Source: Alphaproteobacteria bacterium (lineage in GTDB: Bacteria > Pseudomonadota > Alphaproteobacteria > RF32 > CAG-239). Taken from it: a stretch of 64,000 nt of DNA. The stretch is from assembly GCA_017939155.1 (NCBI GenBank), contig JAGAZZ010000055.1, forward strand, positions 1 through 64,000, written 5' to 3'. The translations under genes were made by a program, and so were the position numbers. The notes under the pieces are model-generated. The model worked only from the letters and a program-made list of their open reading frames with translations, was not told the origin of the DNA and did not search any database. This document shows, in pieces, positions 10,548 to 30,804 of this stretch; positions within the stretch are counted from its first letter, which is position 1, and each line of letters begins with the position of its first letter.

Positions 10548-12336
10548 GTTTGAAAAAATGCCCGAGTGGGATTTGAGCGAGTATTATAACGGGACGGATG
10601 ATAAAAAGATTGATGAAGACATTGCGCTATATGCTAAAAAAGCAAATGATTTTGCGCTTAAATACCGCGGAAGAGTGGCAAAACTTGACGCGGAGGCGTT
10701 TTTGGGCGCGCTTAAAGAGATTGAGGAGATGGATAGAATTGCCTCAACACTTGGCGGTTTTGCCAGCCTTAATTCATCCACGCAATTGACGAATCCTAAG
10801 GCGTCGGCTTTGTATCAACGCGTGGTTGAGGCGCTTAATGACGCCGGAAAAAATCTGGTGTTTTTTGCGCTTGAATATAACAAGCTTTCTGAAAAAGCAG
10901 TTTCAAGCCTTTTGAGCGATGAGCGGATTGCCTTTTATAAGCCGTATTTAAAACGGGTGCGCAAATATAAACCCTTTGAGCTGTCGGAAGATATTGAAAA
11001 GACTTTGCTTGAAAAAGATGTTACTTCAGGGTCGGCCTGGGTGCGGTTTTATGAAGAGTTTATGTCAAGACTTGCGTATACGGTTGGCGGCAAAACCTAT
11101 AATGAGGCCGAGGTGGGCAAGTTTTCAATGGATGCTGATTCAAAAGTGCGTGAAGAAGCGGGTAAGGAGATTAACCGCGTTTCTAAAGAGCATAGTTTTG
11201 AAGTGGCGTATATTTACAATATGATTATGAAAGACAAGGCGGTTGAAGATGAAAAACGGGGCTTTAAGCTGCCGATGTCCTCGCGCAACCTTGCCGAAGA
11301 AGTGAGCGATGAAACGGTGGAGAGCTTGGCAAAGACGGTTAAAGCAAATTATAAAAATATTGCTTGGCGGTTTTATAAGCTTAAAGCCAAATTGCTTGGG
11401 GTTGAGAAAATCGAGTATTGGGACAGAAATGCGCCGTTGCCGTTTGAAGATGATAAAAAATATTCTTGGCAAGAGGCGGTTGATACCGTTTTGCAGGCAT
11501 ATAACGAGTTTTCGCCGAAACTTCACAGCGTGGCGCGGGATTTCTTTGATAAGCCGTGGATTGATGTTGCGCCTAAAGAGGGCAAACGGGGCGGGGCGTT
11601 TTGCTCGTCGCCTTTGGTGGACGGACACCCGTTTTTGTTATTAAACTTTGTCGGCAAGCGCAACGATGTTTTGACCTTAGCGCACGAATTAGGGCACGGC
11701 TGTCATCATCAGCTCAGGCGCAACAACGGGCTTTTGAACGAAACAAGCCGGATGACAACCGAAGAAGTGGCGTCGGTGTTTGGCGAGATGTTAGTGTTCC
11801 AGTCTATGCTTAACAATGCGAAAACAAGAGAAGAAAAGATTTCTTTGCTTGCAATGAAGATTAACGATATGATTAACACGGCTATTCGCCAGATTGCGTT
11901 TCACTTTTTTGAAGTTCGCGCGCACAATGAGCGTAAACATGGTGAGGTTTCGGTTGAGCGTTTGAATGAGATTTGGTTAGAAGAGATGAGAGAAAGCTTA
12001 GGGCCGTGGGTTAACGTTGATGAAAACTCCGCGCACATTTGGGAACAAATTGGACATTTCTTCTTTTTGCCGTTTTATGTGTATGCGTATTCTTTTGCTG
12101 ATTGTGTGGTTAATTCGCTTTATTGGCTTAAACTTCAAGGGAAAGTAGAGAACTTTGAAGACAAGTATTTAGAGCTGCTGTCTAAAACCGCTATTGGCGA
12201 TTATGAAGAGATTTTTGCGCCGTTTGGGCTTAACCCGAGAGATGAAGCGTTTTGGCAGGGGGGGCTGGACTTGATAGGGTATTACTTAGATGAGCTTGAA
12301 TCTCTCTTGGATAAAGGGGAAAATTTTGTGAACTAG
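10540..12336 (+). CDS. pepF: Oligoendopeptidase F (M3 family zinc peptidase)
   Basis: Cytoplasmic metallopeptidase that cuts short peptides. The zinc site is HELGH at about residues 382-386, with the third ligand in the following ETSRMTTEEVASVF helix, exactly as in M3B peptidases. The N-terminal helical domain (WDLSEYYNG onward) and a length of 598 residues match the family. The frame is open from 10486; ATG 10540 is preferred because AAGGAG lies seven bases ahead and the conserved domain starts nearby, whereas ATG 10534 is almost on top of that site. The last eight codons and the stop lie inside the left arm of a long palindrome (12298-12453), which is unusual. Confidence 0.93.
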   Translation: MTKFEKMPEWDLSEYYNGTDDKKIDEDIALYAKKANDFALKYRGRVAKLDAEAFLGALKEIEEMDRIASTLGGFASLNSSTQLTNPKASALYQRVVEALNDAGKNLVFFALEYNKLSEKAVSSLLSDERIAFYKPYLKRVRKYKPFELSEDIEKTLLEKDVTSGSAWVRFYEEFMSRLAYTVGGKTYNEAEVGKFSMDADSKVREEAGKEINRVSKEHSFEVAYIYNMIMKDKAVEDEKRGFKLPMSSRNLAEEVSDETVESLAKTVKANYKNIAWRFYKLKAKLLGVEKIEYWDRNAPLPFEDDKKYSWQEAVDTVLQAYNEFSPKLHSVARDFFDKPWIDVAPKEGKRGGAFCSSPLVDGHPFLLLNFVGKRNDVLTLAHELGHGCHHQLRRNNGLLNETSRMTTEEVASVFGEMLVFQSMLNNAKTREEKISLLAMKINDMINTAIRQIAFHFFEVRAHNERKHGEVSVERLNEIWLEEMRESLGPWVNVDENSAHIWEQIGHFFFLPFYVYAYSFADCVVNSLYWLKLQGKVENFEDKYLELLSKTAIGDYEEIFAPFGLNPRDEAFWQGGLDLIGYYLDELESLLDKGENFVN

Positions 12337-12453
12337 CTCGCGGGAGGGGCTACTCTGCAGGCGGGTCACGTACCTCTATGTACGCTCCCCGCCTTTGGCA
12401 GGCTCCCGCGGCTATTTCGCAAAATTTTCCGCCTTTCTCCGGAGAGGAACTCT
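12298..12453. repeat. Twin-GTAC palindromic element 1, overlapping the end of pepF
   Basis: A long imperfect inverted repeat. The left arm (12298-12350) and right arm (12400-12453) match for most of their length: GGAAAATTTTGTGAA pairs with TTCGCAAAATTTTCC and CTCGCGGGAG with CTCCCGCGGC. An inner stem pairs GCGGG with CCCGC around two GTAC tetramers (12370-12373 and 12380-12383) 6 bases apart. The left arm contains the final codons and stop of pepF. It would form a strong hairpin in the mRNA and could act as a terminator or 3' stabiliser. Confidence 0.8.
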
Positions 12454-12502
12454 AAGGGGGTATAATTGCGTGCTGCGCACAGGTTATTTTTCGGAGCGTG
12501 CT

Positions 12503-12757
12503 AAATTGTGAACTAGCTCGCGGATGGAAGCCCCTTATAACTTGCTTCGTAAGGGTGCAGTTGTTCTGCACCCTAACTTCGCTTCGGACAAGCCAACTCT
12601 AGGTTCACTTAATTGGCGTTACCGCCAAGTCGTGGACCAAGAGTTGCTATAGTTCTCGGTAAAAAATGTTCACTGAACATTTTTTGCCTGCGAACCCTCA
12701 CGTACGCCTAAGTACGCTCCGGTTTATAAGCGGACATCCGCGGCTATTTCGCAATTA
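12503..12757. repeat. Twin-GTAC palindromic element 2, long form with nested hairpins
   Basis: Outer arms AATTGTGAACTAGCTCGCGG (from 12504) and CCGCGGCTATTTCGCAATT (12738-12756) pair imperfectly and carry the same end sequence as element 1. Inside are three further hairpins: AGGGTGCAG/CTGCACCCT at 12552-12574, TTGGCG/CGCCAA at 12613-12628, and a 12-bp arm pair at 12661-12685. The twin GTAC core is at 12702 and 12712. The middle section is shared with the element at 62311. The sequence between here and 13064 holds no credible gene. Confidence 0.75.
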
Positions 12758-12830
12758 ATCCCACTCCTTGGTTGGAGTGCGTGGCGTGGTAGTTTTTATA
12801 GACTCTTGCGTGCTTCGCACAGGTTGTGGA

Positions 12831-12968
12831 TTGCCGCGGTTGCGTATGGCTAACGCCATGCACCTCGCAATGACTCAAGGAAGGGAGTGGTGGTGTTTCT
12901 CCCTCGCAAGGACTTAAGAGAAGTTTGCCGCGGTTGCGTATGGCTAACGCTATGCACCTCGCAATGAC
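12831..12968. repeat. Two direct copies of a 44-base repeat in a gene-free stretch
   Basis: Copies at 12831-12874 and 12925-12968 differ at one position and end in CACCTCGCAATGAC. This resembles dispersed repeats with the GTCATTGCGAGG core known from many proteobacterial genomes. Nearby, a small hairpin unit GCGTGCTTCGCACAGGTT (about 12808) also occurs in variant form near 12470, inverted near 13041, and near 25213. Short open frames across 12744-13061 are repeat translations without a ribosome site and are not called as genes. Confidence 0.7.
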
Positions 12969-13064
12969 TAGCAAAAGAGGCATCCCTCCTCCGTGAGTCA
13001 TTACGAGCCCAGCCGTAAGGCACAAGGGCGTGGTAATCCATAACTTGTGCGTAGCACGCAAATT

Positions 13065-13092
13065 AAAAAGGCTCTGGTTCAGAGCCTTTTTT
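13065..13092 (-). terminator. Intrinsic terminator of the autotransporter gene
   Basis: Hairpin AAGGCTCT-ggttc-AGAGCCTT flanked by A and T runs. It lies ten bases past the stop of the autotransporter gene and is usable on either strand; the position fits the minus-strand gene. Confidence 0.85.
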
Positions 13093-13102
13093 GTGTGTCC
13101 GC

Positions 13103-16100
13103 TTAGAACTTGTATTTGATTCCGAGGTCAAAGAGCTTCGGATTGTTCTTTTGGATGATTTGGTTAAACTTCGCATAGATGCTCAAGTCTTTGTATTCGT
13201 AGTCGATTGCGGCCTCTAAGAGCGCACGGTCGTGCGTATAGATGTTTGCATAATCGTTGATGGAATACCAGCCGTTAGAGCCTTTGACGCGGGCTCTGAT
13301 GTCATCATACGGAGAACCGAGTTCGCGATAATATGCGCCGCCAACCTTAAAGCCGAGTTTGCCGTATTTTTCAAGCGAAACTTCTTTTTTGAGGAACAAG
13401 CCGATACCTGCTTCAACCGAGAGGTTGTGCGTCTTGTTGGTGGCAAGAGCCAACTCGCTTGAGCCTTCATCTAAGCCGTCTTCGGTGTAGCCGATAGCGT
13501 TTAAGTATAACGCCGGTTCTAAGGAAGCAAAGCCGTTAAGGTCAATGGTGTAGCGCAACTCGTTGGTGAAGCCGTAGAATATGTCGTTGATGTCGGCTTT
13601 TTTGTTGCCGCCTCTTTCAAGGTCACCATAACCATAGCCGAAGCTTAGGATAGAAGCGAGGTTTAACTTTTCGGTGAACTTATGCAGATAGGGGATGAAG
13701 ACGCTGACGATGTTCAAATCTCTACTGCCGCCGCGGTCATACGAAGAGGAGAGCTGGGTGAAGCTCAAGCCTAAGCCTAAACGGTTTTTATTATCAAGCC
13801 GTTTGTCGCCGAAGGTGTACATTGACGTAGCCGAGAGGTCATAGCCTGAGAGAACGGCTTTGTTCTTGGTTTCGAGCGATACCGAATCCGCACCGGCGAT
13901 GACACGATAGTTTTCATCTGACGGTTTTAAGATGGTGTCTGCAATGTTGCGGTTTAAGCTCTTTAAGGCCATAAAGTTTTCATCGGCAAAGTTTGGCATA
14001 ATGTCATAGCCTAAGTCTTTAGCTGTGAGCTGACGTGCCTCTTGCGCTTCGGTTTGGCTCTTTATGGCGTCATACATCTCAACAAGTTTGCCTTGCTCGT
14101 AGTTTGAGGTTAAGTATTTGGCGATAGAGCTGTTGGGTGTAAACTCAGCAAAGTCTTTACGTTCCAGCCGGTGACCGTCCGCGGTGACCTTGGCGTCAAA
14201 GAGAGCAGATTCCGAGATGAGGTTTAGGTTTGCCAAATCATCGGCTTTGAGCGCGCCCTCGGCGGCGTAGGTGTCTTCATTTGAGCCTAAGACATTGGAA
14301 ACGCCGAGCGTTAAGTCACCCTCAAGGGCTTCGGCCTCGATTGAACCGCCTTTTTCAAGGTAAACCCGACCGTCTAACATATCAAGGTTGGCTTTGCCGC
14401 TAAAGGCTAAGATTTTTTCGTTTCTTAAATCTGCACCGTTCAGGGTTATGCCGGCGTCGCCTTTTTCCGTGCCGTTGACATAGATGGAGCCAGAGTTTAA
14501 GACAGTGTTAACGTTGGCGTTTTTCTCGATATAAATACCGTGGGCTTCGTCACCTAAGGCTTTGATGATACCTTTGTTTTCAACGAGTGCGCCTTCGCCG
14601 TCTTTGACGTAGATACCATAGGCTTTGGCACCCGTGACGTCAATAATGCCGTCTTCCGCGTTGACGATATGGTTTGCGCCTTCGCCCAAGATACCGATAG
14701 CGGTGCCGTCTTTACCGTCTATTTTAATCAGACCTTGGTTGATGGCTTCAACGCCTAAGCCTGCGTGAATACCGATAGCGGTGCTGTTTTGGCTTTCAAT
14801 ATTGTTTTCAATATTGATAGTGCCTTGGTTGATGACAGTTTGGCTTTGGTCTGAGAACATACCGATTGCGGTGGTGTTGGCGAGGTTTTGCAAGCTGATG
14901 GTGTTTTCTTTTGGGTTTACCAATGGCTCTGTGGAGGAGGTGCCACGCATACCGTAGATTTCATTTTGCAGACCGGTAGCGGTTGTGGCTGTGGCTGCGG
15001 TGTTTTCTTCACATTTTCCGCATCGTACAACTTCAGGGTGTTCTGTTTTGGCGCAGGTGTTAACGGATGTTGATTTATAGATGTATTGCGCGTCTATTGG
15101 GATATCAATTGCTGTAGGATTTATCGGGCTTATATGGTCACTTGGAACTATTTGGGATACGTCTATGGGGCAAATAGCACCTGTACCACTGCTTAAACTA
15201 CATCTGTAACAGTTTGTGTGATAGCCGAGTGGACAAGCAGTACAACCGGAACGGACATGGCACATTGTGCCGTTATAGGTTTTTTCGGTGTATGTCCATC
15301 CGGTGCCAATAGCTATCTGAGGGAATTCAAATCCGATTTTTCCATCGCATCCATAGTTGCATTTATAGCATTGCTCGTCGCCGCTAAAGACATCCGTTAT
15401 GGCAGTTGTCGACGTTGCTATAAAGCCGGCTACTTCAGCGGCAGGACAAGCGCTTGTGCTTGAACCTATGATACCTGAAGAGCAGGCTTTAGCGGTACAT
15501 TTGCCGCAGACTTTTCCTCCGGACATACCGGAAGAGGCAAAATCCCAGCCTTTAGAACCGGAAGAGCCGCAGCTAGCTACGCTTTGATAGGTGGTGCTGT
15601 AGCCGTCATCGCAAGGGATGTCATCACCGCCTTGGATATAGCAGCCTAAATTAGCTGCTTCATTATTGTTAAGTGTGTAGTCAACCCGTTTAGCGACGCA
15701 TTGGGTTCCGGTAGCTGTTTGGCAAGCACCTTGGTCGCCGTAGTAGCCGACCTCACTTTTGCAGTTATATGTACAAGTGACACAAGGGTTGCCATTAGAG
15801 TCAGTCTTTCCTGTTGTGCTTGAACTTAAGAAAGTAATGTAAGGGTAATCATCTCGACAAGAGGTGTTACAAGTTACTTTCGGACCGCCACGGTGCCAGC
15901 AGGTTTTGCCGTTTTCGGTGGTTTGAGTGCAGGTGTAGCTATCACCGTTTTCGCATTCGCCTTTATCAGCGTAGTAGTTCTCATCTTCATTACAGGTGTA
16001 ATTACAGGGGTAGCATGGGCTATCACCATAGTAAGAACCGGATGAAGTGCCTAAAGAAGCGGTTAAGGAATCATAAGGAGCACAGCCGCTTAATTGGGTT

Positions 16101-19100
16101 GTTTGACCGGTCGGGCAGAGCTTTTTCTCGCATTTAGCGCAGGAATAGCTCCCTGCTGTTTGATATGGGGTGATAAACTTCCAACCGTTATCGCCTGAGG
16201 TGCCGCAGTTTTTGATGTCTGTGGTGCTCTTATAGCCGCTGGCGGTGTCGCAACCATTGGGTTTATAGCAAAGGACACTTCCTCCGTGCACGATGTTGGT
16301 ATTAGTCTGAGCATGGTTTACTTGAGTATATGAAATTCCTTCTTTTTTCGAACCTATGCCTCCCCAACCGTTTGCCGTGTCACAGTCCCATTTACAACTA
16401 TAACAATTTCTAGAACCAACAGGTTTTGCTTCTTCTTCGGAAACGATGAAGCCTTCTGTTGTTGTACAAGCGGTTTCGCTCGGGTGAGTGCCTGGGCATT
16501 CTGAGTTACCGGTGCGGTGATAGCAAGTTGCATAACCAAAATCTGATTCGATTTTTTCGCAAGTGTAACCGCCTTTGGCGCAATCGCTTTCGGTTGCGTA
16601 ATAGTCTTTGCTTGTGTCACAGCCATCGACCTTATAACAAGTTATGTAATTTGTTTTCGGTGTGGTGATGTGAGTTGAACAGGTGTATCCGGTCGGACAA
16701 CTGCCTTCTGCCCAGCCAGTAGCACACGTCCAGGAACAGGTATAACAACCATAGTCATCTTCTGATTCATTTGCTAATTCATAGCCTGTACCACCATCGG
16801 AACATTGGGTTTTATATTCATCATCGGCACATTGGTGGTCACCGCGTTTCCAACAGGTGTTGCCGGTTCTTTCTGTAACCGAGGTGCAGGAGAATGAGCC
16901 GCCGTCTGTGCATTGGGCTTCAGATGCGTAATAGCCATTGTCTTCATCGCAAGAGTAGTTACAGGTGTAACATGGGGTGTCACCGGTATAGCCGACGGCT
17001 GAAGTGCCGATGCTGGCAACTAATGAGGCGTATGAGTCAGGGCAATTACGGGCGGTGGTGGCGGTGCCGGTATCGCAAGGCAATTCCAGACAACTGGAAC
17101 AAGCATAGCCGTCTAAGAGTGCAGGTGCGCCGTCCCAATCCCAACCGTTTGAGCCGGAAGTACCGCAAGCGTCTAAGGTGGAGGTGCTTCGGTCATAATA
17201 ACCGTTATCAAAATTACAGCCGGTGATTTTGGTACATCTGGTGGTGGTGCCGTTAAGGGTTTGTTCGTTTCTTTCGCCAAAGAAGATTGTTTGACTATAG
17301 TTCCAATATTCAGTGCTGTCTTCCCAGCCGGAATCGCACTCGAGCGAACACTTGTAGCAGTCTTTGCTTCCTACGGTGGTGTGGTCTACTTGTTTGGCAA
17401 CGATACCTTTTTTGACGGTAAGGCTTGAACAAGCGGTTTCGGTGTAGTCGGTGTCACATCCTAAGGTGCCGGTGCCACTCCAGCAGGTAAGGCTTGCGTC
17501 ATAAGAGTTATAGTGAGCCGTGCAGGTTGCATAATTTGCTTTGCAGGTGTCGCCATCGTTATAAATGCCATCAGCACAATCGGTCACTTGTATACATTTT
17601 TCGCAGTTTGTGTCGGTTGCTTCAACACAAGCCGGATTTCTCCATATATTACGTTTGAAATAGGTTGTGTTTACATCTCCCTTATCCATTAGAACGTAAT
17701 TTGGGGGACAGCTAAATGGCTTTTCGCCCCTTTGCCAACAGCCGGAGCCGGTGGCAGATTCGGTGCAGGTATAACCGCCGGATGTACAGCTTGATTCAGA
17801 AGTGTAGGGGTGTGTGCTCGGACAACCGTTATCTTTATAACAGCTTAAAGTGATGTTTCGATAGGTGTCGTTTATTGAGGCTTCGGTACAATCTCTTCCC
17901 GCGCGGCAGGTTCCCTCTGTCCAACCGCTGTTACAACTGTATTGGCAAGAATAACAAGTTTGTGTGCCGCTTTTGCCCTCGTTGGTGGGGGTTGTGGTGA
18001 TGTTGTCATTTTTTGAGCATTGCGCTGTATGAGAATTTGCCGGACAGGGTGTGGTTGTGCTTGATTTTACCCAGCAGATGGCGGTGCCAACCGGAGTGGG
18101 GACGCCAGTTTCTGTGCAGGTGTAACCAAGATTGCTGCTATTTGCTTCGCAGAGGCTCTGGCTTGTAAAGTGAGTTGAGTTGTTGCAGTCATAACTACAA
18201 CTATAACATTGTTTACTGCCAACAGGAACAGGTCCGCCTTGTGAAAGCGTTGTTCCGGTTGTAGCAGAGTCGCAGGGGGATTCATACGGATGTGATGACG
18301 GACATTGCGGGTCGCCTCTTTCCCAACAGCTGTGACCGGTGAGATAGGTTACTATATGACACTCATAAGAGCCGCTTGACGTACATTCTGATTCGTATGT
18401 ATAGAAACCATTGTCTTCATCACAAGAGTAGGTGCAGGCGTAACATTTGGTGTCACCGTTATAGCCGGTGGAAGATGAGCCAAGGTCAGCTTTTAATGAG
18501 GTGTGAGGTTCACAATTGCCGGCAGTGGTGGCAGAGCCTGTGGGGCAGGGCAACTTTTCGCATTGTGCGCAAGTGGTGCCGTCTTTAGTTTGAGAATTGA
18601 TAAATTTCCAACCATTTGAGCCGGAAGTGCCACAGTTATAAATGTCAGTGGTGTTCTTATAGCCGTTTGTGGTGCTACAACCGGTGATTTTACCGCAGGT
18701 GGCGCCATGTTCGGTATTGCAAGTTCCGGCGAACGCGGTGCCGATGGGGCAGTTTGACGATTTCCAGCCGTTTGCGGTGTCACAACCATAAGAGCAAGAG
18801 TAGCATTTTCTTGAGCCGACGGTTGTTTCATCTTGGGTAAGTTTGATACCTGATTTTGTCGGTGTGGCACAAGCGGTTTCGTTCGGGTGAGTTGAAGGAC
18901 AGGGTTGGTCACCCTTGTGTCTCCAACAGCCGGTGTCTGTGGTTGATTCTTCGCAGGTAAAGCCACCGGATTCACAAGCGGATTTTGAGGTGTAAGGATA
19001 GGTTGACGGACAGCCGCTTCTCATCCAACAGCCGGAACCTGTGGCTGATTCGAGGCAGGTGTAGCCACCGGCTTGACAGGTTGCTTTAGAAGTGTAGGTG

Positions 19101-22100
19101 TGCGTGGTCGGGCAGATTGGTTTTAAGCAAGCGACCGGCGTGGTGATTTTATTGGTTCCGTCAGGACAGCTTTTGCCTGCGGGGCAAGATGAGCCTGCCT
19201 GCCAGCCGTTGGCAGTGTCACAAGCATAAGAGCAGATATAGCAGGTGCCGTCCTCGTAGGGTTTAGGAGTTTCGCTGGTCTTAAAGCCGGTTGCGCTTGG
19301 GGTACAGTGGTTTTCTTGTTCACCGGGGGGGCAGTGGAAATCGCCATCTCTTTTCCAACAGGTGTAAGTTCTTGAATTAACAGTTTTATCTACCCTTGTG
19401 CAGGTTTGAGTTCCACCGTCTTCGCATTGGTCTTTATCGGCGTAATAGCGGTTGTCTTCATCACAAGAGTAATTACAGGTGTAACATCTGTCATTTCCGT
19501 TGTAACTGGTGGAAGATGCGCCTAATTGAGCGGTTAATGGCGCTTCAGCGTTACATCCGTTAACTGTGGTTGATGTGCCGGTCGGGCAAGGTTTTTTCTC
19601 GCATTGAGCGCAAGAAGCCGAGCCTTGGTCAACAGGATTGATAAATTTCCATCCGTTATCGGCAGTGGTGCCGCAGACGGTGAGTGTGCTGTCATCTTTA
19701 TAGGCTAAGGCGTTGTTACACTCATATTCGCATTTATAACATAATTTAGAGCCGACGGTAATTGGGGTATGCGGTACAAGTGTAATACCGGTTTTGGCAT
19801 CGGTACACGGGGTTTCCTGGTAGTCATCCGGACAATCTTGGTCCCCGGTTTGTTTCCAACAGCCGGAGCCGGGGGCTGACTCTGAACAGGTAAAACCACC
19901 GGATTCGCAAGCAGCTTTTGTGGTGGCGGTGTAGCCTGCGGGACAACCATCATCATGATAACACGTGATAGATTTGTTGCGGTATGTATCATTTATTGAG
20001 GCTTCAGAACAATCTTTTCCTGCCGGGCAGTTCGCGGCTGCTGTTCCTTGTTTCCAGCCGGCGGTGGTGTTGCATTGATAAGCGCAATCATAACAGTCAC
20101 TTGTTCCACTTTGACCGGTGACGTTAGGGGTGGTGAGGATTGCATTAGTGCTGTCAACTAAGCATTGTGCCGTGTTTGAAGGCGGGGTGCAGGGCGTTGG
20201 CGCTGCGTTCTTTTTCCAACAACCGCCGGCGCTTTGAGCGCATTGATAGCCGATGTTTTCTGCGGCTTGTTCACAGAGGGCTTTGGTGGCGTAATAGCCC
20301 TTTGTGGTGTTACATATATTTTTAGTGTAACATCCGGTTACGTCAACAATGCAAGTGTATTCAGAATTTGCCGTGGTGCAGGCGCTGTTGTTATCATAAT
20401 AACCTTGGGTCGGGTCACATTTATCTTTTTTATAACAGTCGGCACCTTTGGAACGATAGGGGTCAGTTAAAGAGGCGTATTTGCAGAGCCACCCGGTCGG
20501 GCAGTTGCTTGCAGTGCCTGATTGCCAGCCGTTTGCGGTATCGCAAAGATATGTACAATCATAGCAATCATCTTCGCCGCTTTTGGCGACAACGGACGGG
20601 GTTGTCTTAATACCGTCTACAGTTAAACATTCATTGATATGCGATGGGGTGGGACATCCTGCAGGGTCGTCTTTGACATAACAGTTATGAGCTGTTTTGA
20701 CGCAAGTGTAGGACGGGTTTGCCGCCGTGCAGGCGGTGTCGGTTGCATAGTAGCCGTGGGCGGCATCGCAAACACCGACAACATAACAACCGGTTGCATC
20801 TATCGTGCAGACGTGCTCAGGGTTAGCGTTTTGGCAAGCTGTTGTGTTGTCAAAATAGCCGTGTGTGGTGTCACAACCGGTCGGGGTATAACATTTTGCC
20901 CCGCTTGGCATTGTTATTTCAGAACACGTTTTTCCGGCAGGGCAGGTTGCAAACCAGCTATGTGCGGTGTCGCATTGATAATTACAGTTATAACACGGGG
21001 CGTCACCAACCTGAGTTTCGGTTTGACCATTAGTGTAGCCGGTGCCGATTTGGCATTGTGTGCGGTTCGGGTGTGAAGCAGGACAGTCAGCATTACCATC
21101 GTGTTTCCAACATTGAGAGCCGGGGGCGGATTCGGTGCAGACATAACCGCCTTCTTCGCATTTGCTTAAGTTCGTGTAAGGATAATCCGGCGGGCAGGCT
21201 GAGGTGGTGTTATTATAGCATTTTTTGCCGTTTGGCATGGTTATATCAGTACATTTTCTGCCGGCAGGACAGGTTGTTTGCCAGCCGTTTGCAGTGTCAC
21301 ATTGATAATCACAATTATAACACGGGGCATCGCCGACCGGCGTTTCGGTTTGACCGTTAGTGAAGCCGGTGCCGGTTTGGCATTGGTTTCTGCTCGGATG
21401 TGTGTCAGGACACTCGGCATTGCGGCTATGGCGCCAACACTCTGAGCCGGGAGCAGATTCGGTGCAGACATAACCGCCGGCTTCGCAAGCGGCTAATGTG
21501 GTATAATAGGTAAAGTCTGTCGGACAGCCGTCATCACGATAACAGATAAGGGTTTTGTTGCGGTTGGTGTCATTGATGGCAACATCTCTGCAGACACGAC
21601 CGGCACGACAGTTTGCTGCGGCTGAGCCTTGTTGCCACCCTGAAGCGGTATCGCATTTGTAGTCACACTCCAAGCAGTCATCCGGACCACTTTTGCTAAC
21701 GGGGGTCGGGGTGGAGATAATACCGGTTTGAGTTTCACAAAGGGCTGTATGCGAATTGGGCAGACATTCGGTCAACAAGGTAAAATTCGGCAACCAGCAG
21801 AGGTTTTCTTGTTGGGTACAATGATAGCCGATATTAGCGTTTTCGCATGAAGCTTGGTTCGGGTGGTGACCGTTTGCTATGTCGCAGACATCTTTTATGT
21901 AACAGCCGTTAGTAACAGTTTTGCAGGTGTAGCCGGGATTGCTGTTACGACATTCATCATCATTGTCATAATAACCTTTTGAGGTGTCGCATTTGGCGGG
22001 GTACCAACATTGGTTTTCATTTAATTCGCAAACAATGCCGGGATGATAAGCGGCACAAAAACCTAAGTTATCATAACGTTTGTCTTTCTCATTACAGGTA

Positions 22101-22756
22101 TAAGAGCATTGATAGCATTGTTGGTCACCGGATTTGTTTGCGGTGGGGGTGGCAGTGGTGATATGGTCAGCTTTGTCTTCGCAAGCGGTTTGTTCACCGG
22201 TTGGGCAATCTACCGGAATACACGCTGTTTTGTCAGAGTTCGGTGTCCAAAATTCATCACAGGACTCAAGGCGATTCTTGCCTTTACAATGTGAACATTG
22301 ACCGTGTTCGGGGCATTCATCTAACGGGTATTTGCTTTTGTCACAGCCTTTGTCATCATCGTGCAACAGGGCATACGCGCCGGCGGCGGCGCCGACACCG
22401 ATAAGGGCAAGCCCGGCGGGGGAGACTTTTACTTTTTCACCGACGATTATGGCACAAACAGGGTCATTATCATCATGACAAGGGACTTTGGTCGAGGCGC
22501 CGAATTTTAAGAGGAGAGCGTAGGCGTCGCGGTCTTTATTTTGTTGAGCAAGGCAAAGGGCAGTGTTTTTATCTTGATTTTCTATGTTTATATAATGCTT
22601 ATATTTGTTTAAGCGTGCGGTATCGTTTTCTTTTGCCCAAGAGTATAAGTGCTCAGGGGTGAGTTTAGCGGCAGCGTTAGCGTCACTAAAACCTGCTGTG
22701 AATACAGCGGTCACGGACAATAAACTTAAAACAAAAAGTTTTTTTAATCTTTTCAT
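13103..22756 (-). CDS. Giant cysteine-rich autotransporter (type V secretion), 3217 residues
   Basis: Predicted surface protein. A Sec signal peptide (residues 1-29, ending DANA-A) is followed by an ankyrin-like stretch (about 35-90), a Gly/Ala-rich hydrophobic segment (111-131), a very long cysteine-rich region (about 138-2585), a beta-helix-like region of repeating NxGxI / GIYV strands (about 2590-2850) and a C-terminal autotransporter barrel (about 2950-3217) ending in the outer-membrane signature YKF. Roughly one residue in nine of the sampled passenger is Cys. I count 20 copies of C-[YLV]-x-C-x-[YLW]-x-C, most followed by DTANGW or DEDN, spaced about 115 residues apart. Between them recur units of the form GGYxCxExxxGSGCW and CPxxHPxxTxC. 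GGGAGAG lies upstream of the ATG. The gene stands alone, with its own terminator. No known adhesin family was recognised in the passenger. Confidence 0.85.
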   Translation of the reverse strand: MKRLKKLFVLSLLSVTAVFTAGFSDANAAAKLTPEHLYSWAKENDTARLNKYKHYINIENQDKNTALCLAQQNKDRDAYALLLKFGASTKVPCHDDNDPVCAIIVGEKVKVSPAGLALIGVGAAAGAYALLHDDDKGCDKSKYPLDECPEHGQCSHCKGKNRLESCDEFWTPNSDKTACIPVDCPTGEQTACEDKADHITTATPTANKSGDQQCYQCSYTCNEKDKRYDNLGFCAAYHPGIVCELNENQCWYPAKCDTSKGYYDNDDECRNSNPGYTCKTVTNGCYIKDVCDIANGHHPNQASCENANIGYHCTQQENLCWLPNFTLLTECLPNSHTALCETQTGIISTPTPVSKSGPDDCLECDYKCDTASGWQQGSAAANCRAGRVCRDVAINDTNRNKTLICYRDDGCPTDFTYYTTLAACEAGGYVCTESAPGSECWRHSRNAECPDTHPSRNQCQTGTGFTNGQTETPVGDAPCYNCDYQCDTANGWQTTCPAGRKCTDITMPNGKKCYNNTTSACPPDYPYTNLSKCEEGGYVCTESAPGSQCWKHDGNADCPASHPNRTQCQIGTGYTNGQTETQVGDAPCYNCNYQCDTAHSWFATCPAGKTCSEITMPSGAKCYTPTGCDTTHGYFDNTTACQNANPEHVCTIDATGCYVVGVCDAAHGYYATDTACTAANPSYTCVKTAHNCYVKDDPAGCPTPSHINECLTVDGIKTTPSVVAKSGEDDCYDCTYLCDTANGWQSGTASNCPTGWLCKYASLTDPYRSKGADCYKKDKCDPTQGYYDNNSACTTANSEYTCIVDVTGCYTKNICNTTKGYYATKALCEQAAENIGYQCAQSAGGCWKKNAAPTPCTPPSNTAQCLVDSTNAILTTPNVTGQSGTSDCYDCAYQCNTTAGWKQGTAAANCPAGKDCSEASINDTYRNKSITCYHDDGCPAGYTATTKAACESGGFTCSESAPGSGCWKQTGDQDCPDDYQETPCTDAKTGITLVPHTPITVGSKLCYKCEYECNNALAYKDDSTLTVCGTTADNGWKFINPVDQGSASCAQCEKKPCPTGTSTTVNGCNAEAPLTAQLGASSTSYNGNDRCYTCNYSCDEDNRYYADKDQCEDGGTQTCTRVDKTVNSRTYTCWKRDGDFHCPPGEQENHCTPSATGFKTSETPKPYEDGTCYICSYACDTANGWQAGSSCPAGKSCPDGTNKITTPVACLKPICPTTHTYTSKATCQAGGYTCLESATGSGCWMRSGCPSTYPYTSKSACESGGFTCEESTTDTGCWRHKGDQPCPSTHPNETACATPTKSGIKLTQDETTVGSRKCYSCSYGCDTANGWKSSNCPIGTAFAGTCNTEHGATCGKITGCSTTNGYKNTTDIYNCGTSGSNGWKFINSQTKDGTTCAQCEKLPCPTGSATTAGNCEPHTSLKADLGSSSTGYNGDTKCYACTYSCDEDNGFYTYESECTSSGSYECHIVTYLTGHSCWERGDPQCPSSHPYESPCDSATTGTTLSQGGPVPVGSKQCYSCSYDCNNSTHFTSQSLCEANSSNLGYTCTETGVPTPVGTAICWVKSSTTTPCPANSHTAQCSKNDNITTTPTNEGKSGTQTCYSCQYSCNSGWTEGTCRAGRDCTEASINDTYRNITLSCYKDNGCPSTHPYTSESSCTSGGYTCTESATGSGCWQRGEKPFSCPPNYVLMDKGDVNTTYFKRNIWRNPACVEATDTNCEKCIQVTDCADGIYNDGDTCKANYATCTAHYNSYDASLTCWSGTGTLGCDTDYTETACSSLTVKKGIVAKQVDHTTVGSKDCYKCSLECDSGWEDSTEYWNYSQTIFFGERNEQTLNGTTTRCTKITGCNFDNGYYDRSTSTLDACGTSGSNGWDWDGAPALLDGYACSSCLELPCDTGTATTARNCPDSYASLVASIGTSAVGYTGDTPCYTCNYSCDEDNGYYASEAQCTDGGSFSCTSVTERTGNTCWKRGDHQCADDEYKTQCSDGGTGYELANESEDDYGCYTCSWTCATGWAEGSCPTGYTCSTHITTPKTNYITCYKVDGCDTSKDYYATESDCAKGGYTCEKIESDFGYATCYHRTGNSECPGTHPSETACTTTEGFIVSEEEAKPVGSRNCYSCKWDCDTANGWGGIGSKKEGISYTQVNHAQTNTNIVHGGSVLCYKPNGCDTASGYKSTTDIKNCGTSGDNGWKFITPYQTAGSYSCAKCEKKLCPTGQTTQLSGCAPYDSLTASLGTSSGSYYGDSPCYPCNYTCNEDENYYADKGECENGDSYTCTQTTENGKTCWHRGGPKVTCNTSCRDDYPYITFLSSSTTGKTDSNGNPCVTCTYNCKSEVGYYGDQGACQTATGTQCVAKRVDYTLNNNEAANLGCYIQGGDDIPCDDGYSTTYQSVASCGSSGSKGWDFASSGMSGGKVCGKCTAKACSSGIIGSSTSACPAAEVAGFIATSTTAITDVFSGDEQCYKCNYGCDGKIGFEFPQIAIGTGWTYTEKTYNGTMCHVRSGCTACPLGYHTNCYRCSLSSGTGAICPIDVSQIVPSDHISPINPTAIDIPIDAQYIYKSTSVNTCAKTEHPEVVRCGKCEENTAATATTATGLQNEIYGMRGTSSTEPLVNPKENTISLQNLANTTAIGMFSDQSQTVINQGTINIENNIESQNSTAIGIHAGLGVEAINQGLIKIDGKDGTAIGILGEGANHIVNAEDGIIDVTGAKAYGIYVKDGEGALVENKGIIKALGDEAHGIYIEKNANVNTVLNSGSIYVNGTEKGDAGITLNGADLRNEKILAFSGKANLDMLDGRVYLEKGGSIEAEALEGDLTLGVSNVLGSNEDTYAAEGALKADDLANLNLISESALFDAKVTADGHRLERKDFAEFTPNSSIAKYLTSNYEQGKLVEMYDAIKSQTEAQEARQLTAKDLGYDIMPNFADENFMALKSLNRNIADTILKPSDENYRVIAGADSVSLETKNKAVLSGYDLSATSMYTFGDKRLDNKNRLGLGLSFTQLSSSYDRGGSRDLNIVSVFIPYLHKFTEKLNLASILSFGYGYGDLERGGNKKADINDIFYGFTNELRYTIDLNGFASLEPALYLNAIGYTEDGLDEGSSELALATNKTHNLSVEAGIGLFLKKEVSLEKYGKLGFKVGGAYYRELGSPYDDIRARVKGSNGWYSINDYANIYTHDRALLEAAIDYEYKDLSIYAKFNQIIQKNNPKLFDLGIKYKF

Positions 22757-23086
22757 AATAGCTCTCCCTTTATTTGCGAAATATCCCTTTGTTTTAACGC
22801 AAATAAAATTTCAGTTCTTAATTATTGGCGTGTTTTTGATACACTATTTAATGCGTTTTTAGCATAATAAATTTGGTTTGTAAAGATATTTTTTGTATAA
22901 AAATCATAATTTAAAGGATAAAAAGCGGCGGTAGCCGAGTCATTGCAAGGGATTGCGCAACATCAAGAAAATTCTTGCACGAATCGGATAAGTCCATTTT
23001 TTTAACCGAATGTTAAGAAGTTATTAACTCAATGTTAATTTTTGTCTAAAATTTAAGCTTTTGCGATTCGGAAAGGAAGGGGATTT
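22757..23086. other. AT-rich intergenic region upstream of the autotransporter
   Basis: A 330-base gap between two minus-strand genes. It should hold the autotransporter promoter, but I see no convincing -35/-10 pair. A fragment at about 22937-22960 (GTCATTGCAAGGGATTGCGC) looks like a degenerate member of the CGCAATGAC-type repeats. CAAGAAAATTCTTG near 22970 is a short palindrome. No coding frame was seen. Confidence 0.5.
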
Positions 23087-23575
23087 TTATTTTATTTCTT
23101 CGTCTTTTTTGATACCGTAAAGCACCGAGCGCGGCATCCAGCCCTCAATTTGGTTTTCAAACTCCAAGAGGCAGAAAGAGCGGTTGCAGCGTTTGATTTT
23201 GGCAACAACGCCGTTTTCAGCGCGGGCGATAATGTCAGCGTTTAAGCTGTCTTTGCGGTAAATATCATTTTGTCCGGGTTCAACAACGAGCGCGTAACGA
23301 GCGTTGGTTAAAAGATTTTTTCTGACCCAAGAAGTGGTGCCTTCAAAATCACGGATTTTGCGCCATTGCTCATATTCGGCGATGATTTCGACCGGGTGGT
23401 TTTGCTGTTGATAAATCCATTCTATCGGGTAGCGGATGTTCGGTCCGGAGCGGGCGTTGACCTTGTCGGCGCGCATGGCGACAAAACGGGTTTCGGCGGG
23501 GCTTAATTCTATAATTGAAGCCGCGGCGTTGCCGGACGTGAAAATAAAAAGCAGAAACAACAAAAATAAACGCAT
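23087..23575 (-). CDS. Secreted bacterial SH3-domain protein (SH3_4-like)
   Basis: A 162-residue exported protein: signal peptide to about residue 19 (TSGNAAA), then two SH3-like segments. The first contains KVNARSGPNIRYPIEWIYQQ and WRKIRDFEGTTSWVRKNLL, and the second EGWMPRSVLYGI. Variable-length RSGPN...W...G..GWV patterns are the hallmark of bacterial SH3 domains of the SH3_4 (DUF1058) type, common in alphaproteobacteria and thought to bind peptidoglycan or periplasmic partners. Its upstream gap (23576-23733) is divergent with the M20 hydrolase. Specific function is unknown. Confidence 0.8.
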   Translation of the reverse strand: MRLFLLFLLFIFTSGNAAASIIELSPAETRFVAMRADKVNARSGPNIRYPIEWIYQQQNHPVEIIAEYEQWRKIRDFEGTTSWVRKNLLTNARYALVVEPGQNDIYRKDSLNADIIARAENGVVAKIKRCNRSFCLLEFENQIEGWMPRSVLYGIKKDEEIK

Positions 23576-23733: not shown

Positions 23734-24837
23734 ATGGATTTGATAAAGACGATTGAAGATTTAATCCGCTTTCGCACAGAAACGGGAAATGCCGAAGAGA
23801 TTGATAAGTGTTTAGCGTATATTGAAAAGAGTTTTGAGGGGACGGGGGCAGTTGTTAAAATCGAGCGGTTTGAAGACGCCAGCCCGGTGATTTATCTTTC
23901 TAACAATGAAGATATGCACCAAGACGCGCTGGTGCTCGGACATCTTGATGTGGTGAAAGCCAAAGACGAGATGTTTGAACCATATATCAAAGACGGCAAA
24001 ATGTTTGGGCGCGGAACGCTTGATATGAAAAGTTTTGCCGCGGTGGCGATGAACTCGCTTCATTATGTTTTAGAGCATAAATTGCCGGTTAAATTCGGCG
24101 TTATCCTCTCCACCGATGAAGAACAGGGAAGCAAAAGCACGCACGCGTTTTTGGCGCGTTACCCTGAGCTTAACGCTAGCGTTGTGCTTGATAATGATGT
24201 GGGTGGAGATATTGGCGAGATTATTAACAAATGCAAGAATCCGGTGTTTGTTAAATTAAAGGCTCAAGGAAAGCCTGCACACGGCTCAACGCCTTGGGAC
24301 GGTTTGGACGCTAATGAAATGCTGATGAAGACGATTGCGGCTTTGCGGCAAAATTATCCGTATTATGACCTTAACAGCGGCAAACCCGCTAACACCTGGG
24401 TTGACACCATGCACGTTGCCAAGATAAGCGGCGGGGAAGTTTCTAATATCATTTCCTCTCAAGCCGAGGCGCTTTTGGACGTTCGTTTAGTGGAAACGTC
24501 TGATGTTTCCGGGCTTGAAGAAAATTTGAAAAAAGCGTGTTTTCCCGGTGTGACATACGAAATCGTGTCTTCTTCAACGCCGGTGGTTATGCGTGAGGAC
24601 AATCCGCAAATTTGGGCCTATAAAACTTTGGCCGAGAAGATTATGGGGCGCAAAATTAACTTTGTACAAATTGGCGGCGCAACGGACGCGCGTCTTTTTG
24701 CCGAAAAAGGGGCGACGGTGATTATGCACTCCGGTACCGGTGAGGGGATGCACGCGGATGGGGAGTATGTAGTTCTTCAATCCGTAGAGGAGTTGGCTAG
24801 GATACAGGTTGAGTATCTGAAGCAGATGGGGGCTTGA
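23734..24837 (+). CDS. M20-family amidohydrolase (ArgE/DapE-like)
   Basis: Two-zinc hydrolase that removes acyl groups or cuts small amides or dipeptides; acetylornithine deacetylase and succinyl-diaminopimelate desuccinylase are the family's best-known members. Zinc-binding motifs are in order: GHLDVV with His70 and Asp72, GRGTLDMK with the bridging Asp97, STDEEQGS with the catalytic Glu129 and ligand Glu130, and MHADGEYV with the last His near residue 350. The lid domain with KAQGKPAHGS follows the second motif. The length (367) fits ArgE better than DapE, but I cannot settle the substrate. AGGAG lies upstream. The gene stands alone before a repeat cluster. Confidence 0.85.
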   Translation: MDLIKTIEDLIRFRTETGNAEEIDKCLAYIEKSFEGTGAVVKIERFEDASPVIYLSNNEDMHQDALVLGHLDVVKAKDEMFEPYIKDGKMFGRGTLDMKSFAAVAMNSLHYVLEHKLPVKFGVILSTDEEQGSKSTHAFLARYPELNASVVLDNDVGGDIGEIINKCKNPVFVKLKAQGKPAHGSTPWDGLDANEMLMKTIAALRQNYPYYDLNSGKPANTWVDTMHVAKISGGEVSNIISSQAEALLDVRLVETSDVSGLEENLKKACFPGVTYEIVSSSTPVVMREDNPQIWAYKTLAEKIMGRKINFVQIGGATDARLFAEKGATVIMHSGTGEGMHADGEYVVLQSVEELARIQVEYLKQMGA

Positions 24838-25349: not shown

Positions 25350-27461
25350 ATGTCTTTGAAAGATGAAATGAGGGCGCAGGCCGAGGAAAAAGAAAAGAAA
25401 ATGTCTGATTCTGCGGGAATTTCAGTAGAAGATAGAACAGATATTGCCGATACTATGCGGCAAGACGCTGCAAGAAGTGTGGCGGAAGAAACTTTGCAGG
25501 TGTATCATCAATTAAACGAACCTGTGCAGACTGATGACGGGAAAGTTCAAGATGTGGATTCTTCTTTGGGGAATTGGCGCGACGGAGAAATCTTTTCAAT
25601 TGGCAATTGGCGCAATTTGGCGTGCAGAAATTATGAAAACCGTGGGAAAAGCGCCGATTTGTCACTTACTAATGAAGAACGGTTAAAATTTCAGAAAAAA
25701 CGTGCGGAATTAACAGAAGTGTTTGTTTCTAATGAAACAAGTCGTATTCAAGATGTGCCGGTAAAACCGGATGCTCTGATAGACCATAGCAAAATCAAAT
25801 TTGTTGCGGCAGAAGATGATGTTGAACATAGTGAAGCTTTTGCCTATTTTAGTGGTGGTGACCAAAGTATTACTTTTCACCAATATACGCCGGTTAATGA
25901 TTCTTCTGACCCTAATACGCCAGTCAATGATTCTTCTTTAGAATATGTGCGAGGAAATTTGATAGCCAAGACTGCTATACTTATGCATGAAAATGCACAT
26001 AAAGACCATTGGGTTTATGATGGACAAGGCATTTTGCAAACTTCACCGGTTAACGCTGCCAAATCCAATCGCCTGACTGAAACCGTGGCTTGCAGCACAG
26101 AATATCTGAATGCGGCTCACCAATACACTTTATTAAAAGAACAGGGAGTTAAAAACGTATCTGTTGCGCGGAATTACACCTTGGCGCAGGTGATGACAAA
26201 ATATAATGCGCTTGAGGCTGAGAAGCGTCCTGAATTGGGAGAGTATTTAAAGTCTGCCGGAATAGAAACGGTGCATATCAGTAAAGCGGATGATATGTTA
26301 GGTTTATGGATTGATTATGGACAGGTGGCACAAGAGCCCAAACCAAAGTTTTCCGACTATTTGAAAAGTCGGGGGATTAAAAATTTGGAAACGACAGGCG
26401 AGCCTAAAATGCAATCCGTTGACGCTTTAAAGGAAAAACTTGATGAGCCGGGAAAGGGGTATAAAGAGCTTGTTGATGAGCTTGGACTTAATAAAAATGC
26501 TCAATATCGGTTTTCTTCTGAACGACCGATTGAGGAAGTTATAGAAAATTTGCAAAGTGTGGAAAATCTGGCTCAAAAAGGTGAAGCTATTGATGGTTCT
26601 TTGGCTTATGCGGGGTTGGGGAGAGCATACGTTACCGCCGTAGACAATATGCCGATTGAGGGTATTTTGGAGATGCATGACGGCTTAAAAGAGGTTGTTT
26701 CCAAACATGGTTTTGACCCTAATAACCCTAAAAGCGTGCGTCGGGTGGTGGAGGCTTCTTCTAAATATTGGCACGAAGGATGGCGACAAGAAGCATATAC
26801 AAAGCAGATGCTTACTTCCGCTGATGTTGGGAAGATGTATTTTGATACAAAATCGTGGTCTGAACAGATAAAAATTTTGGAAAATGAGGATAAAAACTAT
26901 CAGGATGTTTCCGCGCGAATGCTTAAAGATGTGTATATCGGGCATAATACGATGGTTGATTTATCCGGTTGTCGTGATTTGCTGGATACCCTTTCAACTC
27001 CGGGGGCTTTAAGCGAATTTAGCAGACATAATATGAAGCTTGATATGAACTCTCAGGAAGAAAAAGAAATTTGGGGTAATAAAATCAATCCAGTTTCTTT
27101 AGCAGAAATGAAAGAAATTGACGCTTATTTGACTAAAAAAGGTTTGAAAACCGATGATGAAAAGATGGCGTATATGTCGCGATATATGGAAGATATGGCT
27201 TATCGCCGTGGGCAGGTTAATGATGAAGAGTTAACAGCAATCCTTATGAAATATAATAACAATATCACTTATCAGGATAATTTGAGTGTTTCTTACGGAC
27301 GTGATGGCAGGGTTAGCGCAATGCTACAAAATAAAAACTATGATTTAACCCCGTTAATGGCGTCTGTGGGGAAAGGGGATAAAGAACAATCTTCACAAAA
27401 GACGTCATCTCAAGATTATGTTCAAGCCCAAATTCGTGCGGCCAAAGATAATACAAGATAG
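25350..27461 (+). CDS. Unrecognised 703-residue protein with an HExxH putative zinc-peptidase site
   Basis: No signal peptide; the N-terminus is charged and helical. An HENAH motif (His213, Glu214, His217) follows a hydrophobic stretch (AKTAILM), as in zincin metallopeptidases. About 27 residues on, TETVACSTEYLNAAHQY offers Glu244 or Glu251 as a third ligand. Just before lies a short tandem repeat (TPVNDSS twice). Further on, YLKSAGIETV and YLKSRGIKNLE look like a duplicated helix motif. The C-terminal 350 residues are helical and unrecognised. The start has GGAG upstream and a good promoter at 25286. It is followed by a terminator, so it is monocistronic. Peptidase activity is inference from one motif and its context. 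Confidence 0.7.
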   Translation: MSLKDEMRAQAEEKEKKMSDSAGISVEDRTDIADTMRQDAARSVAEETLQVYHQLNEPVQTDDGKVQDVDSSLGNWRDGEIFSIGNWRNLACRNYENRGKSADLSLTNEERLKFQKKRAELTEVFVSNETSRIQDVPVKPDALIDHSKIKFVAAEDDVEHSEAFAYFSGGDQSITFHQYTPVNDSSDPNTPVNDSSLEYVRGNLIAKTAILMHENAHKDHWVYDGQGILQTSPVNAAKSNRLTETVACSTEYLNAAHQYTLLKEQGVKNVSVARNYTLAQVMTKYNALEAEKRPELGEYLKSAGIETVHISKADDMLGLWIDYGQVAQEPKPKFSDYLKSRGIKNLETTGEPKMQSVDALKEKLDEPGKGYKELVDELGLNKNAQYRFSSERPIEEVIENLQSVENLAQKGEAIDGSLAYAGLGRAYVTAVDNMPIEGILEMHDGLKEVVSKHGFDPNNPKSVRRVVEASSKYWHEGWRQEAYTKQMLTSADVGKMYFDTKSWSEQIKILENEDKNYQDVSARMLKDVYIGHNTMVDLSGCRDLLDTLSTPGALSEFSRHNMKLDMNSQEEKEIWGNKINPVSLAEMKEIDAYLTKKGLKTDDEKMAYMSRYMEDMAYRRGQVNDEELTAILMKYNNNITYQDNLSVSYGRDGRVSAMLQNKNYDLTPLMASVGKGDKEQSSQKTSSQDYVQAQIRAAKDNTR

Positions 27462-30031: not shown

Positions 30032-30658
30032 TTAGCTGAAAATCCAGGTGATAGTGTTATCCTCTCTTTGGTTGCAGGCGCTCAATGCATCGGTTATGGT
30101 CAGGCGAATGTTGGCAGCCGGCATATTTGTTGAGTTTGGCATAACAGTGTGAACTGTAGGGATGCCGGTTGTTTTATGAAAGGAATGTTCATATCTCCAG
30201 GCAAATTTATTATTGACAATAAGCGTGTCCATTTCTGAGCCGTCACCGTAAAATTGCCCTTGAGTTAAAATTTCAACACAGCCGCCTTGGAAAATATGGT
30301 CAAAGGTGATGAAAAACATATATTTGCCAACGACTTCTGTGTCTGTGTCAGGACCGGCGGTGACCGAGCCGCCTAAAGCATGGCGCGCGGTGCCGGGGGC
30401 TGCGCGCATATCAAGAGGAATGGCGTGCTGGGCATCCATGTGGGCAATGGAGAGTTGTGTATAATCCTCATCGGCGGCAGTAAACTGGACGATTGCCTTT
30501 TTAAAATCTAAGACCTGTTGGGCGGTTCTGCCGATTTTGTAGCGCCTGAAAGCTCCGCTGATATATTGGGCGATAGAAGCGCCCAAAACGATAAGCAGGC
30601 TTATATACATTATGGTTTCAAGCATTGTACGACCGGATTCATCGCTTTTATTGTACAT
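30032..30658 (-). CDS. Prepilin-like protein with type IV pilin N-terminus
   Basis: A 208-residue protein with a class III signal: a short polar leader ending in Gly, then RTMLETIMYISLLIVLG, which gives Glu at position +5 after cleavage. This is the recognition pattern of prepilin peptidase. The hydrophobic helix leads into a globular domain with a few cysteines (GGCVEIL and SACNQRE). ATG 30658 is preferred over the frame's first ATG because AGGGAG lies just upstream. No pilus assembly genes are near; it may be a minor pilin or pseudopilin. A second such protein is at 58949. Confidence 0.75.
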   Translation of the reverse strand: MYNKSDESGRTMLETIMYISLLIVLGASIAQYISGAFRRYKIGRTAQQVLDFKKAIVQFTAADEDYTQLSIAHMDAQHAIPLDMRAAPGTARHALGGSVTAGPDTDTEVVGKYMFFITFDHIFQGGCVEILTQGQFYGDGSEMDTLIVNNKFAWRYEHSFHKTTGIPTVHTVMPNSTNMPAANIRLTITDALSACNQREDNTITWIFS

Positions 30659-30804
30659 CTTTGTCTCCCTTTTTAATCTTAAACAGCGTAGCATATTTTT
30701 TCAAAAAATACAAGAAATTTGTGTGATAACCGCAATATTTTTCTATACTTTTTTAGAAAGAACAGTTAACTTTCAAAAAAGTCTGTTTTTTAGGAGTGAT
30801 TAAA

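Follow-up and report, generated by a model that had tools for sequence, protein, structure and literature searches.

The gene at positions 13103 to 22756 of the window, by which we mean the whole stretch of 64,000 nucleotides that was analysed, encodes an autotransporter in which a known export system carries a new class of passenger. Its passenger is built from cysteine-dense repeats, and this repeat family is absent from every library searched. A sequence-only reading of the same DNA had regarded the protein as a possibly new class of surface repeat protein, and the description fits the passenger repeats, while the export system is of a known kind, type Va. The explanation towards which we lean, by a modest degree, is that this type Va autotransporter presents a long rod of about 20 Cys-stapled beta-hairpin modules, which would be exported in the reduced state and oxidised outside.

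Architecture of the protein and its passenger

The large frame was confirmed as real, with 3217 residues on the minus strand, the strand being unstated in the earlier reading. The gene, its parts and its nearest neighbours are listed in Table 1. An assembly artefact was ruled out by an 80%-identical partial ortholog and by a gene neighbourhood that other species share. The window gave no matches in Rfam and tRNA scans. Window positions 12300-13061 are non-coding and may hold a palindromic repeat element: they contain direct and inverted repeats in pairs, including 45-nt copies at 12831 and 12925 that are 98% identical.

Table 1. Features of the autotransporter gene and its flanks, in window coordinates
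Feature	Position	Strand	Basis
Whole coding sequence, 3217 aa, 247 Cys	13103..22756	minus	ATG at 22756, stop at 13103
Shine-Dalgarno-like AGGGAG upstream of ATG	22764..22769	minus	inspection
Putative signal peptide, residues 1-28 (basic start, hydrophobic core, ANA cleavage site)	22673..22756	minus	sequence inspection, hydropathy
Two ankyrin-like repeats, residues 31-90, including conserved C68	22487..22666	minus	AlphaFold2, Foldseek, conservation in 13 relatives
Conserved hydrophobic Gly/Ala segment, residues 111-131	22364..22426	minus	hydropathy, conservation
Cys-dense repeat passenger, residues 138-2582, 244 Cys, 20 signature motifs	15011..22345	minus	
Two modules, residues 441-640, predicted as consecutive beta hairpins	20837..21436	minus	AlphaFold2, pLDDT 95.0, pTM 0.70
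Cys-free beta-helix-like stretch and linker, residues 2591-2963	13868..14986	minus	rungs about every 26 residues
Autotransporter beta-barrel PF03797, C-terminal Phe	13106..13867	minus	Pfam profile match
Terminator-like stem GGCTCTG/CAGAGCC with T/A runs	13065..13092	minus	inspection
Small exported bacterial SH3-domain protein, just upstream of the autotransporter	23087..23575	minus	
M20 peptidase gene, divergent from the autotransporter	23734..24837	plus	

Outside the repeats, the parts that the sequence-only reading had described were recovered: a putative signal peptide, an ankyrin-like N-terminus with a hydrophobic Gly/Ala segment behind it, a beta-helix-like segment, and a C-terminal barrel ending in Phe. 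The signal peptide is plausible by inspection and by hydropathy, which peaks at residues 6-25. The head behind it is modelled by AlphaFold2 as helix pairs, with pLDDT >90 over most of the ankyrin-like region, and most of its top Foldseek matches are ankyrins (probability up to 0.98, but E above 0.2). Together the two methods give the head the paired-helix repeat fold of the ankyrin type. The window protein itself has no Pfam ankyrin match, and its paralogs have weak matches to Ank_2 and Ank_4. The Gly/Ala segment contains a hydrophobic 19-mer (residues 113-131, Kyte-Doolittle mean 1.68), is modelled with low AlphaFold2 confidence and is followed by an acidic or Gly-rich linker. At the other end of the protein, five rung-like repeats (residues 2630, 2660, 2686, 2712 and 2738) stand between the Cys-rich part and the barrel. 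The barrel domain occupies residues 2964-3217; its match to PF03797 (E 3.7e-18, 66.6 bits against a cutoff of 26) covers residues 2964-3197 and model positions 13-254 of 255, and the protein closes with LFDLGIKYKF.

The passenger consists of 2445 residues, one in ten of which is a cysteine, evenly spaced. All 247 cysteines of the protein lie within residues 68-2582, leaving residues 2583-3217 free of them, and the gap from one cysteine to the next has a median of 9 residues, with 81% of the gaps at 13 or less. The strict motif C[YLV]xCx[YLW]xC occurs exactly 20 times, the number given by the earlier reading; 2000 shuffles of the Cys-dense domain itself contained it 0.027 times on average and never more than once. 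That reading had also proposed a 115-residue repeat. The repeats are real, but the unit is not uniform: by profile alignment, with a profile built from 24 copies, the core unit has 12 Cys in about 109-118 residues and may be followed by optional extension units of 4 Cys and about 37 residues each, and an alternative shorter unit (NGW...C..C) is also present. The neighbouring cysteines at profile columns 58 and 64 are both lost 15 times, while column 58 is lost alone once and column 64 alone 31 times, so their pairing with each other is suggested rather than proved.

Profile searches proposed by the sequence-only reading assigned the barrel to PF03797 and found no match for the repeats among Pfam or NCBIfam models. 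Against PDB sequences the repeat domain gave no real match, the best being a flavodoxin at E 0.31, which was dismissed as chance. Haem attachment was likewise discarded, the passenger domain having no CxxCH. A structure prediction of two units, for which a disulfide knot had been envisaged, gave confident modules in the form of beta hairpins; this model drew on 56 aligned copies. A Foldseek search with it reached best E values of 1.3 in PDB and 0.26 in BFVD, neither of them significant, and the top rows (antibody chains and fibres, TM about 0.1) were regarded as meaningless. Because small extended folds score weakly, and PDB and BFVD alone were searched for the fold, we describe the predicted repeat fold as one without a recognised relative in these two collections rather than as a proven new fold. 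With no described family matched by sequence or by fold, the earlier view of the repeats as unrecognised stands.

Conservation, distribution and gene neighbourhood

The cysteines are the most strictly kept residues of the protein. Among the 263 Cys columns of six orthologs, taken from related species and 50-86% identical, 262 are invariant; Trp comes next, with 4 columns only, Gly and Tyr are near 58%, and Ile and Val columns are about 5% invariant. The partial ortholog L073 keeps 66/66 cysteines at 80% identity. The gene is under purifying selection: four comparisons, of which one spans the full aligned length and the other three the Cys-rich region, put dN/dS at about 0.1. Of six members that are complete or nearly so, five have an even number of cysteines in the repeat domain (244, 94, 152, 262 and 270). 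The sixth, L065, has 151 after the N-terminal region, an odd number obtained by a crude cut; the final Cys of this protein falls within the barrel region, 142 residues before the C-terminus. As the orthologs are not independent, the even counts serve as support and not as a statistic.

The earlier reading proposed to survey related genomes for a conserved barrel with a variable repeat number. The complete relatives L074 and L079 have a barrel-type end, and Cys numbers in the repeat domain run from 94 to 270 across members; several relative genes end at contig ends, as is expected of repeats. With a 371-residue piece as query, the repeat was present in 16 of 57 relatives, all of one genus. The repeat profile matched 13 of 83 family genomes, with only weak matches outside the genus, and one of 385 genomes across the class, namely the source genome. 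A scan of genome contigs gave 15 loci, all in alphaproteobacterial MAGs; its query was the conserved N-terminal head, the repeat alignment being too divergent for that use. The MAG titles that name a source refer to deer or yak rumen and colon. The autotransporter is a core gene of one genus of gut Alphaproteobacteria.

The divergent M20 peptidase gene adjoins the related autotransporter genes in 14 of the 15 relative loci. The exception, L074, shares with the window the SH3 gene on one flank and the M3-peptidase side on the opposite flank. The SH3-domain gene also lies upstream of the autotransporter in L073, L074, L076, L077 and L079. Two further genes of the window deserve mention: a PilS-type pilin-like gene (30032-30694, minus) is conserved near the locus in many related genomes, and a 703-aa protein (25350-27461, plus) has no significant Pfam or PDB match, carries the HExxH-type metallopeptidase-like motif HENAH, and has no relative seen in the 15 relative loci. 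One related genome, G003, contains two Cys-rich autotransporters resembling the window locus (L074 and L085) on two contigs, each of which ends near its autotransporter gene, so that they are possibly a tandem pair.

Within the source genome there are 11 autotransporter barrel matches, ten of them besides the window protein. A similar head is found in three other genes, with 98, 56 and 16 Cys, and none of the other full-length autotransporter genes read has more than 5. Head and tail are thus common to these paralogs while the middle varies, and the middle modules appear to be exchangeable. Two of the paralogs, L015:2130-7769 (56 Cys) and L017:2686-6285 (16 Cys), join the ankyrin-like head to other Cys-rich middles, one of which has a weak EGF-like match. 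Sister genera also encode giant Cys-rich proteins (L098-L101), in which as many as 167 Cys were counted over the stretch read; neither the signature motif nor an autotransporter barrel was recognised in the stretches read.

Redox state of the passenger during export

Profile searches found neither DsbB nor VKOR, the two enzymes that usually drive the formation of disulfides, in any of 49 family genomes, the source genome included, across 16 genera; the positive controls matched known owners, and an absence by profile search leaves room for a divergent or unrelated oxidase. The source genome's own sequence contains a DsbD-type protein with N-terminal, membrane and thioredoxin parts, together with three DsbA-like proteins (CSHC, CGYC and CGHC sites). 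That Cys-rich exported proteins occur in a family yet lacking a match to either oxidase is a family-wide puzzle. In exported proteins generally, an even number of Cys accompanies the possession of DsbA together with DsbB or VKOR, and obligate anaerobes tend to keep Cys out of such proteins; some obligate anaerobes use DsbA-like proteins without a partner, for which another electron acceptor has been proposed (PMC12453122). Autotransporter passengers that bear Cys cross with higher efficiency when dsbA is mutated or 2-mercaptoethanol is added, and folded or bonded passengers have been reported to cross as well (PMC1533851).

The sequence-only reading had offered three escapes for such a passenger, namely delayed oxidation, a dedicated chaperone and a different export route. 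Delayed oxidation fits the gene content best and is favoured, as DsbB and VKOR were not found while a DsbD-type reductant is present. The other two found no such footing: the neighbours with recognisable domains are housekeeping genes and not a chaperone beside the gene, and a different route is unsupported given the complete barrel here and the same barrel-type C-terminus in complete relatives.

In the preferred explanation, the protein would leave the cytoplasm by Sec export via its signal peptide, and the Cys-dense chain would be kept reduced in a periplasm without detected DsbB or VKOR and with a DsbD-type electron supply. The barrel would then insert, and the Cys-free beta-helix would cross first, its C-terminal end leading. 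The cysteines of each module would pair upon emergence, and a module whose cysteines have paired could not slide back. The ankyrin and Gly/Ala head would cross last, or might act as a stop that remains on the periplasmic side. The result would be a stalk or coat resistant to proteases, with the number of modules setting its length. Several observations speak for this account: the barrel and the overall architecture, the near-complete invariance of the cysteines, the extra units of 4 Cys, the joint losses of columns 58 and 64, the even Cys counts, the predicted hairpins, the low dN/dS, the Dsb gene content, and the published effect of dsbA mutation and 2-mercaptoethanol on Cys-bearing passengers. 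Against it, the three DsbA-like proteins might oxidise the passenger in the periplasm with another electron acceptor, L065 has an odd count, and an outside oxidant would be needed in the anaerobic gut. A stronger version, in which a distinct disulfide-stapled hairpin repeat evolved, the periplasm is non-oxidising, and oxidation at the exit acts as a ratchet pulling the chain through, we consider tentative and rather doubtful as a whole.

The main rival to reduced export is that oxidation takes place in the periplasm but joins only neighbouring cysteines into very small disulfide loops, which the barrel tolerates, the DsbA-like proteins acting with some other acceptor. The short gaps between cysteines and the partial co-loss of columns 58-64 agree with this reading, three candidate oxidants are encoded, and a review notes that cysteines lying close together form small loops, which would not be expected to obstruct passage (PMC8151025). 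It would, however, require about 120 bonds in a single chain in a family where 49 genomes lack DsbB and VKOR by profile search, and the modelled hairpins would form compact modules rather than tiny loops alone. We judge it unlikely, at perhaps one chance in several.

It is less probable still that the cysteines bind metal (zinc or iron-sulfur) and do not form disulfides, the passenger being a metal-holding surface polymer. Such a role would suit the CxxCxxxC clusters and a presumed anaerobic niche in which neither DsbB nor VKOR was found, and the tendency of obligate anaerobes to avoid Cys in exported proteins (PMC12453122) makes disulfide use here unusual. Histidine, however, is rare in the passenger domain (46/2445 residues) and poorly conserved (6/17 columns), the Cys counts are even with additions that come as 4 Cys, and no metal-binding family was matched. 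Very improbable, finally, is a relic barrel with the protein reaching the surface, or staying in the periplasm, by another route, for although the odd hydrophobic segment behind the ankyrin head and the sister-genus giants without a recognised barrel might hint at it, the window protein has a full-length PF03797 domain with a terminal Phe, the C-termini of L074 and L079 are of the same kind, and ten other barrel matches occur in the source genome.

Significance and comparison with known systems

A Cys-dense passenger should be the worst possible cargo for a simple autotransporter pore, and the family appears to break two rules at once, that type V secretion tolerates few disulfides and that even-Cys exports generally go with DsbA and DsbB or VKOR. 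The state that the barrel requires of a crossing passenger is an old question, and it becomes directly testable here in a natural system. The predicted repeat fold, with no significant match among solved structures, might also offer a scaffold of stable, self-stapling modules. An open-access keyword search found no title or abstract on Cys-dense autotransporters of this group.

With the type Va autotransporters (PF03797) the window protein shares the C-terminal barrel ending in Phe and probably also the signal peptide and the beta-helix-like stretch, and it differs from them in the 244-Cys passenger and in the ankyrin-like head with its hydrophobic segment. The giant proteins of the sister genera share with it a high Cys density and weak matches to the repeat profile. 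Animal-type and EGF-like Cys modules resemble it in being tandem, small and Cys-stapled; EGF profile models matched neither the window protein nor the paralog C52. IcsA and intimin demonstrate that a type V passenger can carry a native disulfide (PMC8151025), although theirs is a single bond, Dsb-dependent and without such repeats.

The low Cys content of type V proteins, on which the earlier reading had based its contrast, is confirmed by a review, in which the notable case is the chlamydial Pmps, with up to 18 Cys, whose periplasmic handling had not been examined (PMC8151025). In rPmpD, each of the 18 Cys seems to be bonded in vitro (PMC6005502). Membership in the Pmps was ruled out for the window protein, in whose 3217 residues GGA[ILV] has 0 and FxxN 2 matches; Pmp profile models gave no match, PF03797 being the sole match at E up to 1. 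Both are nevertheless autotransporters with disulfide-bonded passengers, if, as we infer, the cysteines described here form disulfides, and the window protein stands apart in having more than ten times the cysteines and in belonging to an unrelated lineage.
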